Below, piece by piece: positions 3,407-43,850 of a stretch of DNA of 64,000 nucleotides. The stretch spans positions 1 to 64,000 of the forward strand of contig CADASF010000001.1 of NCBI GenBank assembly GCA_902790465.1, written 5' to 3'. A program made the translations under genes and the position numbers. The notes beneath the pieces are model-generated. The model was given only the letters and a program-made list of their open reading frames with translations. It was not told where the DNA came from and did not search any database. Position 1 is the first letter of the stretch. Every line of letters starts with the position of its first letter. The stretch comes from an uncultured bacterium (GTDB lineage Bacteria; Vulcanimicrobiota; CADAWZ01).

Positions 3407-3901
3407 TTAATAATTATTTTTTATAGATTTTATTTTGTTAATAAGTATCTCTTCTGTATTAGGAGGCAATAAATCAGATGCTCTTGCTCCTAATTTATAG
3501 ATTTCTTTTATTTTACTTGAACTTAAAAAAGCATATTTATCTTCAGTTATCATAAAAACTGTCTCAATTTCATGATTTAACTTTTTATTCATAAGAGCCA
3601 TAGAATATTCATATTCAAAGTCTGTTACAGCTCTCAAACCTTTTACAATTATATTTATATTTTTTTTCTTCATATAGTCAACTAAAAGACCTGAAAAACT
3701 GTCTATTGTAACAGAAGGAAGGTGTGCTGTAGCAATTTTCAAAAGATCAACTCTTTCTTCAAGAGAAAAAAGTGGCTGTTTTCCTGAATTTACTAAAACA
3801 GCTATAACAACCTCGTCAAAAAGTTTTGAGGCTCTTTCTATTATATTCATATGTCCCATTGTAACAGGATCAAAACTACCTGGATAAACTGCAATTTTCA
3901 T
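3407..3901 (-). CDS. coaD: Pantetheine-phosphate adenylyltransferase
   Basis: CoaD transfers AMP from ATP to 4'-phosphopantetheine, the penultimate step of coenzyme A synthesis in the cytoplasm. The 164 residues are the standard length. The nucleotidyltransferase motif is GSFDPVTMGHMNII (HxGH represented by the TMGH segment), and the second ATP-binding signature appears as LSSSKIKEI near residue 130. The conserved KGLRAVTDFEYEYSMALMN segment is complete. The gene follows rsmD in the same direction, as in many Firmicutes, although 477 bases with a repeat element separate them here. Confidence 0.97.
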   Translation of the reverse strand: MKIAVYPGSFDPVTMGHMNIIERASKLFDEVVIAVLVNSGKQPLFSLEERVDLLKIATAHLPSVTIDSFSGLLVDYMKKKNINIIVKGLRAVTDFEYEYSMALMNKKLNHEIETVFMITEDKYAFLSSSKIKEIYKLGARASDLLPPNTEEILINKIKSIKNNY

Positions 3902-3997
3902 TTTTTAAACCTTTCAATTTCCCTCGTTTTTACTATTTTTAATATTTTTACTCTTTGTCTTCACTCACTTTGATAATAAAAAATAATGCAAAATAAC

Positions 3998-4344
3998 TAG
4001 GGCGTGTTGGTAAATTATCCAATAGCCAATTTTGTGATGGTATAATATGTAAATTAAGCTCCTTCTAACGAAGGAGAAAAAATACTGAAACGGCTTCAGT
4101 TTTCTCATAGTAGCTAAATAAAAAGAAACTCCTACCTTTGCGAGAAAACTGTCAGAGTGAGGATATTATACCTCAAAAATTGGCGTAAGCAGAATAATTA
4201 TAACAATTTTCAAAATTAGTGTAAATTTAGTTTTGTGTATAAGTCATTCACTTCAGGTTCCGCTTAGCTCTATTTCTGTTCATTAACTTATACACAAAAC
4301 TAAAATATTATTATTTTTATTAGGGATTTTACCAACACTCCCTA
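3998..4344. repeat. R1a: MITE-like structured repeat between rsmD and coaD
   Basis: Outer inverted ends are TAGGGCGTGTTGGTAAA (3998-4014) and TTTACCAACACTCCCTA (4328-4344), starting and ending in TA, consistent with TA target duplication. A second inverted pair lies inside (4026-4048 with 4163-4183, built on GGTATAATAT/ATATTATACC). Its core has the hairpin CTCCTTC-TAAC-GAAGGAG (4059-4076), then GAGAAAA (4074-4080) facing TTTTCTC (4100-4106) with ACTGAA/TTCAGT nested inside. Related copies occur at 5046-5235 and 43484-43850, and end-only relics at 18108-18163 and 36690-36722. It fills most of the 477-base gene-free stretch 3902-4378. No transposase is encoded. Confidence 0.75.
4226..4304. repeat. 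79-bp palindrome with 19-bp perfect arms inside R1a
   Basis: TTTAGTTTTGTGTATAAGT (4226-4244) is the exact reverse complement of 4286-4304. The 41 bases between them hold no obvious gene. It sits in the right third of R1a, outside the part shared with the other R1 copies, so it may be a separate small insertion. It could also act as a hairpin in RNA read through from rsmD. I see no direct repeat long enough to prove insertion. Confidence 0.6.
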
Positions 4345-4378
4345 AAATATTAAACTTGTTTCACATATAGCAAATTAT

Positions 4379-4924
4379 TTAATCATCAAGTTTATTAACA
4401 AAAAAAGTAAGTGCCGTCTGTCCATATTTTTTAACTCTCGAAATAACAAATCCATTATCTGATAATTCTGTCTTATGGTATCTCTCAACAATAAAAACAC
4501 CATCTTTTTTTAACAAATTCAACTCTTTTACTTTCGACACCAACAGATTATAATCCTTAAAATCATAAGGTGGGTCTGCAAATATTATATCAAACTGTCC
4601 TTCGATCTTTAGAAGAGCTTTAAATATATCTGCAGATATTATTTTCAATTTATCAACAAAACCTAAAACTTCAGCATTATTTTTTATTATCCCTATCGCA
4701 TATCTACTTCTATCAACAAAAGAAACAGATTCAGATCCACGGCTCAATGCCTCAAGACCAATAGTTCCAAAACCTGCAAATAAATCGAGAAAATCAGAAC
4801 CTTTTATCTTTTCTCCCAATATGTCAAAAATAGCTTCTTTAACCATTTGCGAAGTAGGGCGTATATCCTTTGCTGAAGGAGCTTTTATATTTCGACCTTT
4901 TGCACTTCCACCCTGAACTTTCAT
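4379..4924 (-). CDS. rsmD: 16S rRNA (guanine(966)-N2)-methyltransferase
   Basis: RsmD methylates G966 of 16S rRNA in the small subunit using S-adenosylmethionine. The 181 residues fit the family. The SAM-binding motif is FLDLFAGFGTIGLEALSRG, and the catalytic motif IV is DPPY within IIFADPPYDF; the N-terminal KVQGGSAKGRNIKAP and the helix RPTSQMVKEAIFDIL are typical. The ATG at 4924 follows an AGAGG-type site (AAGAGAGGAAT). Downstream is R1a and then coaD, its usual neighbour; upstream is R1b and then recG. Confidence 0.95.
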   Translation of the reverse strand: MKVQGGSAKGRNIKAPSAKDIRPTSQMVKEAIFDILGEKIKGSDFLDLFAGFGTIGLEALSRGSESVSFVDRSRYAIGIIKNNAEVLGFVDKLKIISADIFKALLKIEGQFDIIFADPPYDFKDYNLLVSKVKELNLLKKDGVFIVERYHKTELSDNGFVISRVKKYGQTALTFFVNKLDD

Positions 4925-5045
4925 TTTTATTCCTCTCTTCTGTCCTCTTACCTATAATTTTGGAAACAAATACTTTCCTCAGTCCTATAATTATATTAAA
5001 AAAACTAATCTATATATGTATTAAAAATATTTTGCCAATTAAGTA

Positions 5046-5235
5046 AAGTTTTGCGGTGCAATGCGGGCAAATTAGCTCCTTGCAAGCAAGGAGAAAAAAT
5101 ACTGGAACTGCATCACTTTTTCTCGTAGTAGTATCGAAAAAGAAAACTCTTACTTAAAATATTCTCTATTTTAAATAAAATTAGATAAATGAAAAGAGAA
5201 AAATGTTAAAGTGAGTGTATTGCACCGCAAAACTT
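5046..5235. repeat. R1b: structured repeat between recG and rsmD
   Basis: The ends AAGTTTTGCGGTGCAAT (5046-5062) and its exact reverse complement (5219-5235) enclose the same core as R1a: hairpin CTCCTTG-CAAG-CAAGGAG (5076-5093), then GAGAAAAA (5091-5098) facing TTTTTCTC (5117-5124), then GTAGTAG. Its closing stem aligns with the inner inverted pair of R1a, yet the sequence differs while both arms still pair. The outer GTGTTGGTAAA ends of R1a are missing here. It fills most of the 427-base gene-free stretch 4925-5351; the rest is A+T-rich with nothing else recognisable. Confidence 0.75.
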
Positions 5236-5351
5236 AAAACTAACTATTAAAGGCAATTATAATAAAATTGATATTTTTGCAAAACATTTTTATTTTATAT
5301 ATAATACAAGTTAAATATTTTTAAAAATTGCTGTAACTAACTCAATATCAC

Positions 5352-7748
5352 CTAATTTATAATCTCATTGAAATTTTCTGTCAACATATTCATTTTAGAT
5401 TTAACATCACTACGCTCTACATATTCTGGATTTGTTTCCAAAATATAACCCGCATCTTCTCTTGCCATTTGCATCAACACAAGATCATTTGTCAAATCTG
5501 CAATTCTGAACATCGGCAACCCATGTTGTTTAGTTCCACAAAAATCACCAGGTCCTCTCATCTCTAAATCTTTCTCAGCTATCTTAAATCCGTCTCTTTC
5601 TCTTACCATTGTTTTCATTCTCTCAAGACCTTCTTGAGATTTTACATTTCCAATGAAAAAACAAATAGACTCAAAACTACCTCTGCCAATTCTACCTCTT
5701 AATTGATGAAGTTGAGCAAGACCAAATCTCTCTGAATTCATTATAACCATAATAGTAGCATTTGGAACATCAACCCCAACTTCTATAACAGTTGTTGATA
5801 TTAGGACATCTGTATTATTTTTTCTGAATTCATCCATTATGCTTTCTTTTTCAGAAGGCTTCATCTTTCCATGAAGAAGTGAAACTCTCAAATCAGAAAA
5901 CACACCATTTTTTAATTCCTCAGCCGTTTCTATTGCTGATTTTGCCTCTATTTTATCTGATTCATCAATAAGAGGACAGACAATATATGCCTGACGCCCT
6001 TTTTTTATTTCTTCTTTTATATATTTACAGACTTCTGGCAATTTATCAATCTGCCTAAAATAAGATTTAATAACTTTTCTATTTGGAGGCAATTCATCTA
6101 TTATGGAAATATTAAGATCTCCATATAAAGTCATAGATAATGTTCTTGGAATTGGAGTCGCAGTCATAACTAAGTTATCTGCGTTAATTCCCTTTTGTTG
6201 TAAAGCTGTTCGTTGCATAACACCAAAACGATGTTGTTCATCAACAACAGTAAAAGCTAAATTTTTAAATTCAACATCTTCTTGAATAAGTGCATGAGTT
6301 CCAACAACGACTTTAATTGAGCCATCTTTTAATCCAGAAAGTATGTAATCCCTATCTTTCTTTTTTGTACTTCCTGTCAAAAGTTCAGTATTTATGCCAT
6401 AATAACCCAAATACTGAGAAAACTTTTTGAAATGTTGCATAGCCAATATCTCAGTCGGAGCCATTATTGCTGTCTGAAATCCATTTTCAACAGCAAAAAA
6501 TATCCCTGCAACAGCAACTACAGTTTTTCCTGAACCAACATCTCCCTGAATCAACCTATTCATAGCATAAGGAGATGACAAATCAAACATTATTTCTTTT
6601 ATAGTTCTCAACTGAGCTTTTGTCAACTTAAAAGGAATACACTCTTGAAACTTTTCCAACAATTCAAGATTAACAGAATACTTTCTATTTTTGGCTATTT
6701 TCCTTCTGTTATTTCTAAAAAGGAGAAGTTTTAACTGAAACAAAAATAACTCATCATAAGCCAATCGCTTTTTAGCTTTTGCAATATCTTCCCAAGTTTG
6801 TGGCAAATGTATTAAATTTATAGCCTCTTTATATCCAAGTAAATTTCTTTTCTCAATAATTTCACTTGGCAAAAATTCAACAAACAAATCAGAATAAAGT
6901 TCTAAATTGGTTTTAATGATTCGCTTTATTGTTTTTTGACTAAGATTTTCTGACAGTGGATATATTGCATTTACTTTTAATAAATGTTCCTCTTCTTCTT
7001 CCAATTCAATATCTGGATTTTGAATTGTCCAACCTTCTGTTTTAAATTCAACTTTTCCAAATATACTTAACTTAGTTCCATTCGAAAATGTTCTAATCTT
7101 ATAAGGCTGATTAAAAAATACGAGTAAAAGAGGACATCTACTTGAATCAGTAACAGTAACTTTAGAAATTGTCAAATTTCTTCGTATTTTCTGTTCTTTT
7201 TTAGATAAAACCCAAGCAGATATTGAAACAAATTCACCATCTACCAACTCATTTATCTTTTTTTTAGAAGTTCTGTCTTCATATCTTCGAGGATATAATG
7301 CAAACAAATCGGCAACCGTAAAATATCCCATATATTTTAGACGACTACCAAGTGAGGGTCCAACTCCTTTTGCATATTGAATATCACTATTCAAAGCAAG
7401 ATGAGGATTAATTTTAATATTGATTTTTTCACAAATTTTTTGTTTGGATATCGCTTTTTTTTGTAATGTCTCAGGTACTTTCTTTCTATTTTTAGTTGAT
7501 AGATTGAATATTTTTTTCAATTCCTCAACTATTATCTTTCTCTCAACAGTAGAACTACCATTGTAAGGAGTAATATTTTTTACTGCCTCATCATATAATT
7601 CTTTATTTAATTCACCTGTTTCTAAAGCCTTTTCTAAAAAAGACAAAACAAATTTATCAAATCCACCAAAAACCGATAAATTTTTATATCCTGTTTTTTC
7701 TTCAAGACTTAAAGGTTTTAATATTGTCGATATAATTTCACTATCCAT
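5352..7748 (-). CDS. recG: ATP-dependent DNA helicase RecG
   Basis: RecG remodels stalled forks and Holliday junctions. I start at ATG 7748 (MDSEIIS), which overlaps the plsX stop by 8 bases, rather than an in-frame start 30 bases earlier inside plsX. The product has 798 residues: an N-terminal extension of about 110 residues, the wedge/OB domain (about 115-320, with GVGPSLGSRLKYMGYFTVADLF and YPRRYEDR), then helicase motifs Walker A QGDVGSGKT, DEQH box, TATPIPRTL, and the C-terminal RIGRG and GPGDFCGTKQHGLP (TRG/wedge-linking) segments. The extension is longer than in E. coli RecG but similar ones occur in other bacteria. The plsX-recG arrangement is common in Firmicutes. Confidence 0.96.
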   Translation of the reverse strand: MDSEIISTILKPLSLEEKTGYKNLSVFGGFDKFVLSFLEKALETGELNKELYDEAVKNITPYNGSSTVERKIIVEELKKIFNLSTKNRKKVPETLQKKAISKQKICEKINIKINPHLALNSDIQYAKGVGPSLGSRLKYMGYFTVADLFALYPRRYEDRTSKKKINELVDGEFVSISAWVLSKKEQKIRRNLTISKVTVTDSSRCPLLLVFFNQPYKIRTFSNGTKLSIFGKVEFKTEGWTIQNPDIELEEEEEHLLKVNAIYPLSENLSQKTIKRIIKTNLELYSDLFVEFLPSEIIEKRNLLGYKEAINLIHLPQTWEDIAKAKKRLAYDELFLFQLKLLLFRNNRRKIAKNRKYSVNLELLEKFQECIPFKLTKAQLRTIKEIMFDLSSPYAMNRLIQGDVGSGKTVVAVAGIFFAVENGFQTAIMAPTEILAMQHFKKFSQYLGYYGINTELLTGSTKKKDRDYILSGLKDGSIKVVVGTHALIQEDVEFKNLAFTVVDEQHRFGVMQRTALQQKGINADNLVMTATPIPRTLSMTLYGDLNISIIDELPPNRKVIKSYFRQIDKLPEVCKYIKEEIKKGRQAYIVCPLIDESDKIEAKSAIETAEELKNGVFSDLRVSLLHGKMKPSEKESIMDEFRKNNTDVLISTTVIEVGVDVPNATIMVIMNSERFGLAQLHQLRGRIGRGSFESICFFIGNVKSQEGLERMKTMVRERDGFKIAEKDLEMRGPGDFCGTKQHGLPMFRIADLTNDLVLMQMAREDAGYILETNPEYVERSDVKSKMNMLTENFNEIIN

Positions 7749-8739
7749 TTTCTTCTGTTTCAGCCATATCTTCAGCAAAAAGTCTTATAATATCTTTTTT
7801 TATCATTCTTTCAGCTAATTTTATCGCATTCTCAACAGCATCATATTTTGCTCGTCCATGTGCCTTAATTGAAATTCCATCAATACCAAATAACAAAGCT
7901 CCACCATATTCAGAATGATCCATTTCCTTTTTCAATTTCTTAAAAACGCTTTTCATAAGCATAGCTCCAAGAATAGAGATAGGATTTTTTCCTATGTGTT
8001 GCTTTATTAATTTAGTAACTAATCCACCTGTTCCCTCTGCTGTCTTTAAAATGATATTTCCAACAAAACCATCTGCAACAGCAACATCTACAACACCTTC
8101 CATGAGTGTATTTGGTTCAACATTTCCCTTAAAATTGACATTTGATTTTTCCAAAAGTTCATAAGTAGATTGAATGAAACTACTTCCCTTATATTCTTCT
8201 GAACCAATATTAATAAGACCAACTGTTGGATTTTCAACATTTAATATATGTTTTGCATAAGTAGAACCCATTTTAGCAAATTGAACAAGATATTCAGGTT
8301 TACATTCAGGATTTGCCCCTGCATCGAGTAAAATTGTTGGCTTATTAAAAGAAGGAAGTACCACAGAAATAGCTGGTCGCTTAATTTTTGCACTTTTCAA
8401 TCTTCCAATGTGAAGTACAGATGCTTCTAAAAAAGCTCCAGTATTTCCTGCTGTAATAACAGCATCTGCTTTTTTCTCTTTTACCAAATTTGCGGCAAGT
8501 ATTATAGAAGCCCTTCTTTTCTTTCTAAGAGCAACAGAAGGACTTTCTGCCATTTCTATGAATTCATCCGTGTGTAATATTGTTATCTTTTTTGTATTGG
8601 CTGGAATCAAAGGCTTTATTTTATTTTCATCACCAACAAGAATTATATCTGATTCTAAATAAGAAGATGCTTTAACAGCTCCCTTAACTATTTCAATAGG
8701 AGCATTATCTCCACCCATTGCATCTATTGCAATTTTCAT
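7741..8739 (-). CDS. plsX: Phosphate acyltransferase PlsX
   Basis: PlsX converts acyl-ACP to acyl-phosphate, the donor for PlsY in phospholipid synthesis; it is a peripheral membrane enzyme. The 332 residues match the family, with the N-terminal MKIAIDAMGGDNAP signature, GNTGAFLEASVLHIGRLK, LLDAGANPECKPEYLVQFA, NIGSEEYKGS, and VADGFVGNIILKTAEGT. Usually fapR or fab genes lie next to it; here only recG follows, translationally coupled by an 8-base overlap. The gene faces away from the TPR gene at 8849, so the 109-base gap must hold two promoters. Confidence 0.97.
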   Translation of the reverse strand: MKIAIDAMGGDNAPIEIVKGAVKASSYLESDIILVGDENKIKPLIPANTKKITILHTDEFIEMAESPSVALRKKRRASIILAANLVKEKKADAVITAGNTGAFLEASVLHIGRLKSAKIKRPAISVVLPSFNKPTILLDAGANPECKPEYLVQFAKMGSTYAKHILNVENPTVGLINIGSEEYKGSSFIQSTYELLEKSNVNFKGNVEPNTLMEGVVDVAVADGFVGNIILKTAEGTGGLVTKLIKQHIGKNPISILGAMLMKSVFKKLKKEMDHSEYGGALLFGIDGISIKAHGRAKYDAVENAIKLAERMIKKDIIRLFAEDMAETEENG

Positions 8740-43483: not shown

Positions 43484-43850
43484 GCTATAAACTATCCAAT
43501 ATATGCCTGTATACTACCACTTTGTCATTGCGAGGCTTTAGCCGTGGCAATCTAAGCCTTTATGATCTATTTAATAAATTGCTAAATTAAAATTAAGTGG
43601 TTGAGATTGCCACGGTCGCACAGCTTCCTCGCAATGACATCGCTTCTAATTTCCGTTAAGAATAATAAGACTACGAGAAAAAGTGATGTCGTTTCAATTT
43701 TTATTCTCATTTGCTTACAAAGGAGCGAAATTGTCATTTTACCCACAAAAACTTTGTTTACTTGTTTATTTTATAAAAAGAGTTTAAATGGGATATAGAG
43801 AAATTATACCATACCAAATTGGCTATTGAATAGTTTACCAACACACCATA
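43484..43850 (-). repeat. R1c: R1 copy in reverse orientation, interrupted by another repeat
   Basis: Read on the minus strand, 43850 downward begins TATGGTGTGTTGGTAAAC and continues with the same CAATAGCCAAT and GGTATAAT blocks as R1a. About 75 bases of extra sequence then precede the R1 core (CTCCTTTG arm at 43718-43725, GAGAAAAAG at 43675-43683), and a separate repeat occupies 43523-43639. The far side, around 43484-43520, still shows the GTATAC and CCAAT remnants. It fills most of the gene-free stretch 43427-43910. Confidence 0.65.
43523..43639. repeat. GTCATTGCGAGG-type palindromic repeat, inserted in R1c
   Basis: TGTCATTGCGAGG (43523-43535) and CCGTGGCAATCT (43542-43553) pair with AGATTGCCACGG (43604-43615) and CCTCGCAATGACA (43627-43639). 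This sequence type is a widespread small palindromic repeat of many bacteria, known from general knowledge and not checked here. It is G+C-richer than the surroundings and lies between the core and one end of R1c, so it inserted into R1c or replaced part of it. Confidence 0.8.

Follow-up and report, generated by a model that had tools for sequence, protein, structure and literature searches.

The R1 locus

What kind of repeat changes the letters of its stems and yet keeps them paired? The question is raised by R1a and R1b, two copies of a repeat that lie beside rsmD in the window, the whole stretch of 64,000 nucleotides analysed here. A first-pass annotation had placed both in operon gaps, and both were found there on the plus strand, R1a in the coaD-rsmD gap and R1b in the rsmD-recG gap, within the series plsX-recG-rsmD-coaD, open reading frames (ORFs) of the window that run on the minus strand (Table 1). 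The name rsmD is taken from that annotation, and the other three ORFs are presumed from their sequences to be recG, coaD and plsX. The reading favoured here, to which we assign a probability of roughly 0.6, is that R1 consists of stacked non-autonomous mobile hairpins, which preserve their shape as the letters of their stems change, by a mechanism that we infer.

Table 1. Features of the R1 locus and of R1c, with positions counted from the first nucleotide of the window.
Feature	Position	Strand	Description
coaD	3407..3901	-	ORF
MITE carrying R1a	3998..4345	.	Ends TAGGGCGTGTTGGTAAA / TTTACCAACACTCCCTA
R1a, core B element with module A inside	about 4026-4183	+	P1 arms 4026-4048 / 4163-4183
Module A in R1a	4050..4087	+	Hairpin CTCCTTCTAACGAAGGAG at 4059-4076
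P3 of R1a	4099..4149	+	GTTTTCTC 4099-4106 / GAGAAAAC 4142-4149; read from sequence, folded
3′ half of core B in R1a	4150..4161	+	TGTCAGAGTGAG; sequence and model match
Second, reverse core-B-like palindrome in R1a MITE	4212..4318	-	Arms 4212-4244 / 4286-4318, 82% complementary
rsmD	4379..4924	-	ORF; relatives in 5/5 genomes searched
R1b, core B element with module A	5046..5235	+	P1 arms 5046-5062 / 5219-5235
Module A in R1b	5065..5104	+	Hairpin CTCCTTGCAAGCAAGGAG at 5076-5093
5′ half of core B in R1b	5105..5115	+	GAACTGCATCA; sequence, same columns as family alignment
P3 region of R1b	5117..5203	+	TTTTTCTC ... GAGAAAAA; GTAGTAG at 5125-5131
3′ half of core B in R1b	5204..5215	+	TGTTAAAGTGAG; sequence and model match
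recG	5352..7778	-	ORF; protein 87% identical in sister contig CADAWZ010000077.1
R1c, decayed module A and part of core B	about 43591-43739	-	Model matches (see text)

R1a and R1b each consist of a larger element, core B, that carries a short hairpin, module A. The reported exchange of a C-G for a G-C pair between the two hairpins is there (CTCCTTCTAACGAAGGAG against CTCCTTGCAAGCAAGGAG), and the closing stems differ yet pair, over 17 bp without a mismatch in R1b and as GGTATAATAT / ATATTATACC with an imperfect extension in R1a, as read from the sequence. The core motifs said to be common to both copies are not identical, R1a having GTTTTCTC with ATAGTAG where R1b has TTTTTCTC with GTAGTAG. R1a matches the core B model at C1:4070-4181 (E 7.9e-14), has its GAAC decayed to AAAC, and has its nearest copy in the same genome on contig 16 (95% by BLAST); R1b matches at C1:5087-5235 (E 6.1e-14), and in it the GA of 5105-5106 lies opposite the GA of 5213-5214. 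A third copy that had been announced for 43.6 kb, R1c, is also present but decayed, matching the module A model at E 0.0146 and the core B model at E 0.042, with a closing stem that now pairs poorly (arm score 15). R1c continues into another repeat, with GATGTCATTGCGAGG ... GTGGCAATCT, that is present at several loci (window 43591-43739, L055).

Two families within one repeat

BLAST searches of the same genome returned 44 matches with R1a as query and 52 with R1b, many of them covering the hairpin only, so module A is separable from core B. Core B occurs without module A at many places, and module A without core B at more. The consensus of module A, which measures ~36-40 nt, is AATTAAG-CTCCTnn..nnAGGAG-AAAAAAAAT, and that of core B is [closing stem]-GAACnnCATCA-[P3]-TGTTnAAAGTGAG-[closing stem]. 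With E up to 1, the module A model gave 113 matches in the genome of the window, 27 in the sister species (G001) and none in the relatives G002-G004; 102 of the 113 were examined, leaving out five overlapping duplicates and six with E > 0.2. With E up to 0.1, the core B model gave 57 matches in the same genome, 73 in the sister species and none in the three more distant relatives. Among the genomes searched, core B and module A are restricted to one genus of rumen bacteria.

The genome of the window contains 25 exact instances of the hairpin pattern and 0 of its reversed control, which rules out plain chance; the pattern matched one of 58 genomes, namely this one, and gave no match in a collection of genome contigs. 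Ten viral stretches matching the pattern held no perfect hairpin in the frame of module A and were taken as chance, and most of the 95 rows returned by a relaxed pattern were evident false matches. A known RNA family was set aside, with 0 Rfam matches in the window at gathering score and no credible one in 3900-5400 even when E was allowed to reach 5, and neither family was found in print in the open-access literature searched. The suggestion of an undescribed structured family stands as far as Rfam gathering scores go, but what had been taken for a single family reads as one mobile hairpin nested in another.

Covariation and fold

The paired changes first noticed between two copies extend far past them, in the hairpin of module A as well as in the closing stem of core B. 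In an alignment of 42 of the 44 listed module A hairpins (two overlapping ones were dropped), 99.4% of cells in the inner stem are paired, and the covariation score is 0.215, compared with 0.037 for shuffled and at most 0.051 for slid alignments. Because the hairpin finder required at least six pairs, only stem pairs 7-9 provide an unselected test; pair 7 is CG in 15 copies, AU in 12, GC in 12, UA in two and unpaired in one. The closing stem of core B scored 0.476 in 34 copies, compared with 0.199 when shuffled and at most 0.195 when slid, these 34 of 35 rows (L293 was dropped) having been picked for arm complementarity. RNAalifold, run on the alignment with the structure not given, found the same closing helix together with two covarying pairs beside the core, 29-147 (GC 16, AU 14) and 30-146 (CG 21, UA 8), beyond which G·A, A·G, A-U and C-G follow in nearly all copies.

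Since the 34 copies had been chosen for pairing, the closing-stem test was repeated on 115 hits of the sequence model (116 of the 130 core B matches were submitted and 115 of these scored). Mean arm complementarity was 27.5, compared with 14.9 ± 0.46 for shuffled partners and 16.9 for the largest of 2000 shuffles, which leave the relatedness among copies in place. The 95th percentile of foreign pairs was reached by 71 of 93 core B copies without module A and by 7 of 22 with it, the arm being harder to place in the latter. The conserved part of core B is small: where GAAC lies opposite GTGA, two G·A mismatches stack on each other. All 34 chosen rows keep these pairs, and 103 of the 115 unselected copies keep GAAC. 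P3 (TTTTTCTC/GAGAAAAA) showed no covariation in the register tested, which may not be the right one, given a one-base difference between subfamilies.

The paired changes could also have arisen in one step, through copying of one arm from the other (template switching or hairpin repair) or through recombination between copies, with no selection on structure. Such events would fit the symmetric copies with the same flank on both sides (contig 7:31760 and contig 3:415), the whole hairpins swapped at one site between species, and the hybrid core B copies on contigs 83 and 17, which join poorly matching arms of two subfamilies and whose existence means that pairing is not strictly enforced. Copying should erase a non-complementary core, yet the G·A pairs and GAAC persist at the frequencies given above, and the stems contain G·T and A·C intermediates, with a moderate excess of G·T (24, against 14 A·C) on the R1 strand, a count that includes several evident false matches among its 56 rows. 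This explanation appears improbable. The paired changes, which the first-pass annotation took to suggest selection on RNA or DNA structure, do not separate such selection from copy-back or from recombination among copies, and they do not prove selection at the RNA level, the transcribed strand being usually the less stable one.

Orientation against transcription

Orientation relative to neighbouring genes was scored for 99 of the 130 core B matches, those with enough flank, the genes in this count being ORFs of at least 100 codons picked by length rather than annotation. Where both neighbours agree in direction, core B is opposite to them in 68 of 70 cases and the same in two; over all neighbours of the 99 copies it is opposite 162 times and the same 25 times, and after merging of copies within 1.5 kb the figures are 56 and 2. 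Within single contigs, core B and the genes reverse direction in step, in one case over a distance of 6 kb, so the bias is not simply one of replication direction. We read it as removal or avoidance of the other orientation, although the core B strand of the messenger could conceivably be used as such.

These counts also bear on the possibility that core B acts as a regulatory RNA within operon messengers, or as an antisense small RNA, with RNA structure under selection and mobility incidental. A regulatory RNA would fit the strong covariation of the closing stem, the tight relation of core B to transcription direction, and the arrangement of variable helices around a conserved internal loop, which is the look of RNA families. 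As RNA, however, the R1 strand forms the more stable fold of the two strands in 29 of 34 copies (mean -36.5 versus -31.3 kcal/mol), and because core B opposes the genes, the better-folding strand is normally absent from the messenger. The paired changes behind the structured-RNA proposal are real, but a structured RNA is not the simplest reading of them, the better-folding strand being usually the untranscribed one. No Rfam family was matched by R1, the other genera of the family that were searched lack core B, and copies lie in MITEs and at unrelated genes; on balance we consider a regulatory RNA unlikely.

Terminal inverted repeats around R1a

R1a lies inside a MITE of 347 bases with inverted ends at 3998-4024 and 4318-4344 (81%). 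The TAGGGCGTGTTGGTAAA end, allowing up to three mismatches, occurs 134 times in the same genome and 17 times in the reversed control, and members of this MITE range from 56 to 347 bases, some without R1. At L211, the sole locus where the stretch enclosed by such ends was checked for a gene, no ORF reaches 100 codons. The terminal inverted repeats of the element around R1a are of fixed sequence, whereas the arms of core B covary. Presence and absence also differ between relatives, the sister lacking R1a and the module A of R1b; its rsmD-coaD gap is about 12 bases long and is without the R1a MITE.

An origin of R1 copies as MITEs in decay, mobilized by a single transposase acting on their terminal repeats, would suit R1a, with its 134 matching ends and its absence from the sister, but is very improbable, given that R1b lies outside that MITE, that the MITE occurs without R1 down to 56 bases, and that core B arms have no constant sequence and covary instead. 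The earlier judgement against plain MITE decay is borne out, since R1 cores lie both inside and outside the TAGGGCGTGTTGGTAAA MITE and are not explained by one transposase with ordinary ends.

The second palindrome in the R1a MITE shows GAAC and AGTGAA on the minus strand between GTATAAGT arms, as read by eye, and resembles one more copy of core B lying the other way round; it is not among the core B model matches. Core B copies on contigs 87 and 38 (L005, L006) lie within a second MITE-like frame with GGGGCTGTGAAAAAA-type ends. R1a contains one terminator-like match without a convincing T-run, and 16 promoter-like sites were counted where 7.4 were expected in an AT-rich stretch; readings as an intrinsic terminator or promoter were set aside. 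An integron attC site was considered and dropped.

Module A insertions and gene starts

Several comparisons show that module A is mobile. On contig CADAWZ010000077.1 of the sister species, the recG-rsmD gap holds the same core B with the same closing stem and without module A; the site of the R1b hairpin measures 40 bases in the window and three in the sister, a net gain of 37. In paralogs of an AAA-ATPase/PDDEXK_9 protein (Pfam), 15 of 16 sequences found being aligned, module A is inserted in frame at four sites, each of which is empty in other paralogs. These read YWYNSA[LFFPPSKKELN]VSSFL, from an antisense module A; IP[ENIFAPSIEGEKKQ]DDY; DF[KKDIFAPSIEGEKKC]EYWYR, with a further module A nested inside on contig 84; and YGD[ISSFINEGEKKLSN]KK. 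At C84:13653 (L175), module A within module A lies within an AAA-ATPase/PDDEXK gene with the reading frame kept throughout. A further module A occurs near the start of a type I restriction specificity gene (Methylase_S), a place where the usual specificity protein is presumably without such an insert; solved structures gave no alignment in the insert-bearing part of this protein.

Module A is also nested in its own loop, once in sense orientation between two CGAA flanks and once in antisense between two GCAA flanks, the copy on contig 37 being the uninserted counterpart. The CGAA and GCAA flanks look like 4-base target duplications, each from a single case, and the R1b insertion shows none. 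At a leader on contig 84, the genome of the window and the sister carry unrelated hairpins between the same flanks. Among eight alignments comparing the two species, two (C26 and C17) were badly placed; just the final part of C26 was used, and C17 was left out. Module A stands directly before what we take from its sequence to be a tRNA-Ser gene in both species (L127 / C16:32515), and the sister copy has decayed.

In 17 of the 102 examined copies of module A, an ORF of 40 codons or more has its ATG 6-11 bases after GGAG, and exactly nine bases after it in 15 of the 17. These gene starts share the leader GAGGAGCATT(T/G)AAGCTCCTT..AAGGAG, and in 14 of them AGGAGCATT stands upstream as a potential alternative partner for GCTCC, which could pair either way. 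The genes behind such leaders include AAA-ATPase/PDDEXK, restriction specificity, RtcB, glycosyltransferase, DUF6273 and leucine-rich proteins, in a family scan of eight proteins, of which one was the restriction gene with the internal insertion and one was without a family.

Relation to known repeat systems

Rickettsia palindromic elements (RPEs) are described as in-frame fusions to genes, with a length of about 150 bases (PMC10969869), and coding palindromes are mentioned from Wolbachia and Methanocaldococcus as well (PMC2996958). Module A resembles RPEs and the coding palindromes of Wolbachia and M. jannaschii in being palindromic, in having many copies and in inserting in frame, also in reverse, and a palindromic repeat in frame in protein genes is what the four AAA-ATPase/PDDEXK_9 sites contain. 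Compared by description with RPEs, module A differs in its length of about 40 nt rather than ~150, in nesting in itself, in free exchange of its stems, in its ribosome-site leaders and in its organism. It extends the set of bacteria with in-frame palindromic insertions to an apparently unrelated one.

REP families are characterized, in excerpts of PMC3733652, as high-copy hairpins of 20-40 nt with alternative complementary stem residues, and REP heads, in a portion of PMC2817692, as carrying GTAG or GTGG and lying beside RAYT genes. Module A is likewise a short high-copy hairpin with alternative complementary stem residues, but it has no GTAG or CGTC tag at its foot, and no transposase was found tied to it. 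No such conserved end was found in the 42 aligned module A copies, GTAG occurring only inside P3 of some core B copies. Y1_Tnp (PF01797) gave three partial matches in the genome of the window, two of them at contig starts, and beyond these no RAYT was found there.

For core B the closer likeness is to ERIC, YPAL and NEMIS/Correia repeats, intergenic hairpins of similar size that are proposed to act on neighbouring messengers; in the relevant section of PMC2229807, ERIC destabilizes messengers in an orientation-dependent manner and RNase III cleavage is proposed for NEMIS. Core B is an intergenic hairpin of similar size and is strongly oriented; it differs in its free helix sequences around a conserved G·A loop, in lying opposite to transcription in 68 of 70 cases where both neighbours agree, and in being genus-restricted among the genomes searched.

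The small dispersed repeats (SDR) of cyanobacteria are tiny mobile elements that can sit inside other repeats. Module A and core B, as small nesting mobile repeats, are likened to them by description rather than by sequence.

Proposed mechanism and significance

Core B and module A together are a real structured mobile repeat system, new in its combination and limited to one genus among the genomes searched. They are best read as structure-dependent mobile hairpins, module A being RPE- or REP-like and core B ERIC- or YPAL-like. Under the reading of R1 as a stack of mobile hairpins, a protein of the host or of a transposon would recognize the folded single strand during copying and insertion, its target being perhaps the G·A loop in core B and, in module A, the CTCC-GGAG base of the stem with its A-run. 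Recognition by shape would tolerate compensating changes in the stems. Against this stands the finding that no transposase could be tied to module A or core B in the genome of the window, where Y1_Tnp gave the three partial matches.

Insertions that place the more stable core B strand in the messenger may be lost or never made, which would leave nearly all copies antisense. Once inserted, a hairpin transcribed along with its operon probably makes the messenger more or less stable, by analogy with what is described for ERIC and NEMIS. Before a start codon, module A would supply GGAG as a ribosome site and could also hide it in the stem.

A more specific proposal is offered tentatively. In this proposal core B would be addressed by shape, one protein reading the two stacked G·A pairs and ignoring helix sequence, so that the arms can be rewritten and transcription decides which orientation survives; module A leaders would, in addition, form a translation switch, GCTCC pairing either with the upstream GGAGC or with the ribosome site, that has spread over AAA-ATPase/PDDEXK, restriction-specificity and RtcB-type genes.

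The system is of interest as a small, naturally occurring example of a mobile repeat that seems to preserve its shape and not its sequence. With more than 100 hairpins in two close genomes and helix sequence uncoupled from shape, recognition by shape becomes testable, and the near-absolute antisense orientation makes RNA filtering of intergenic mobile hairpins directly testable. Elsewhere in the window, positions 1262-2869 encode a Peptidase_M23 protein with a long TTKKQ(D/N) repeat array.
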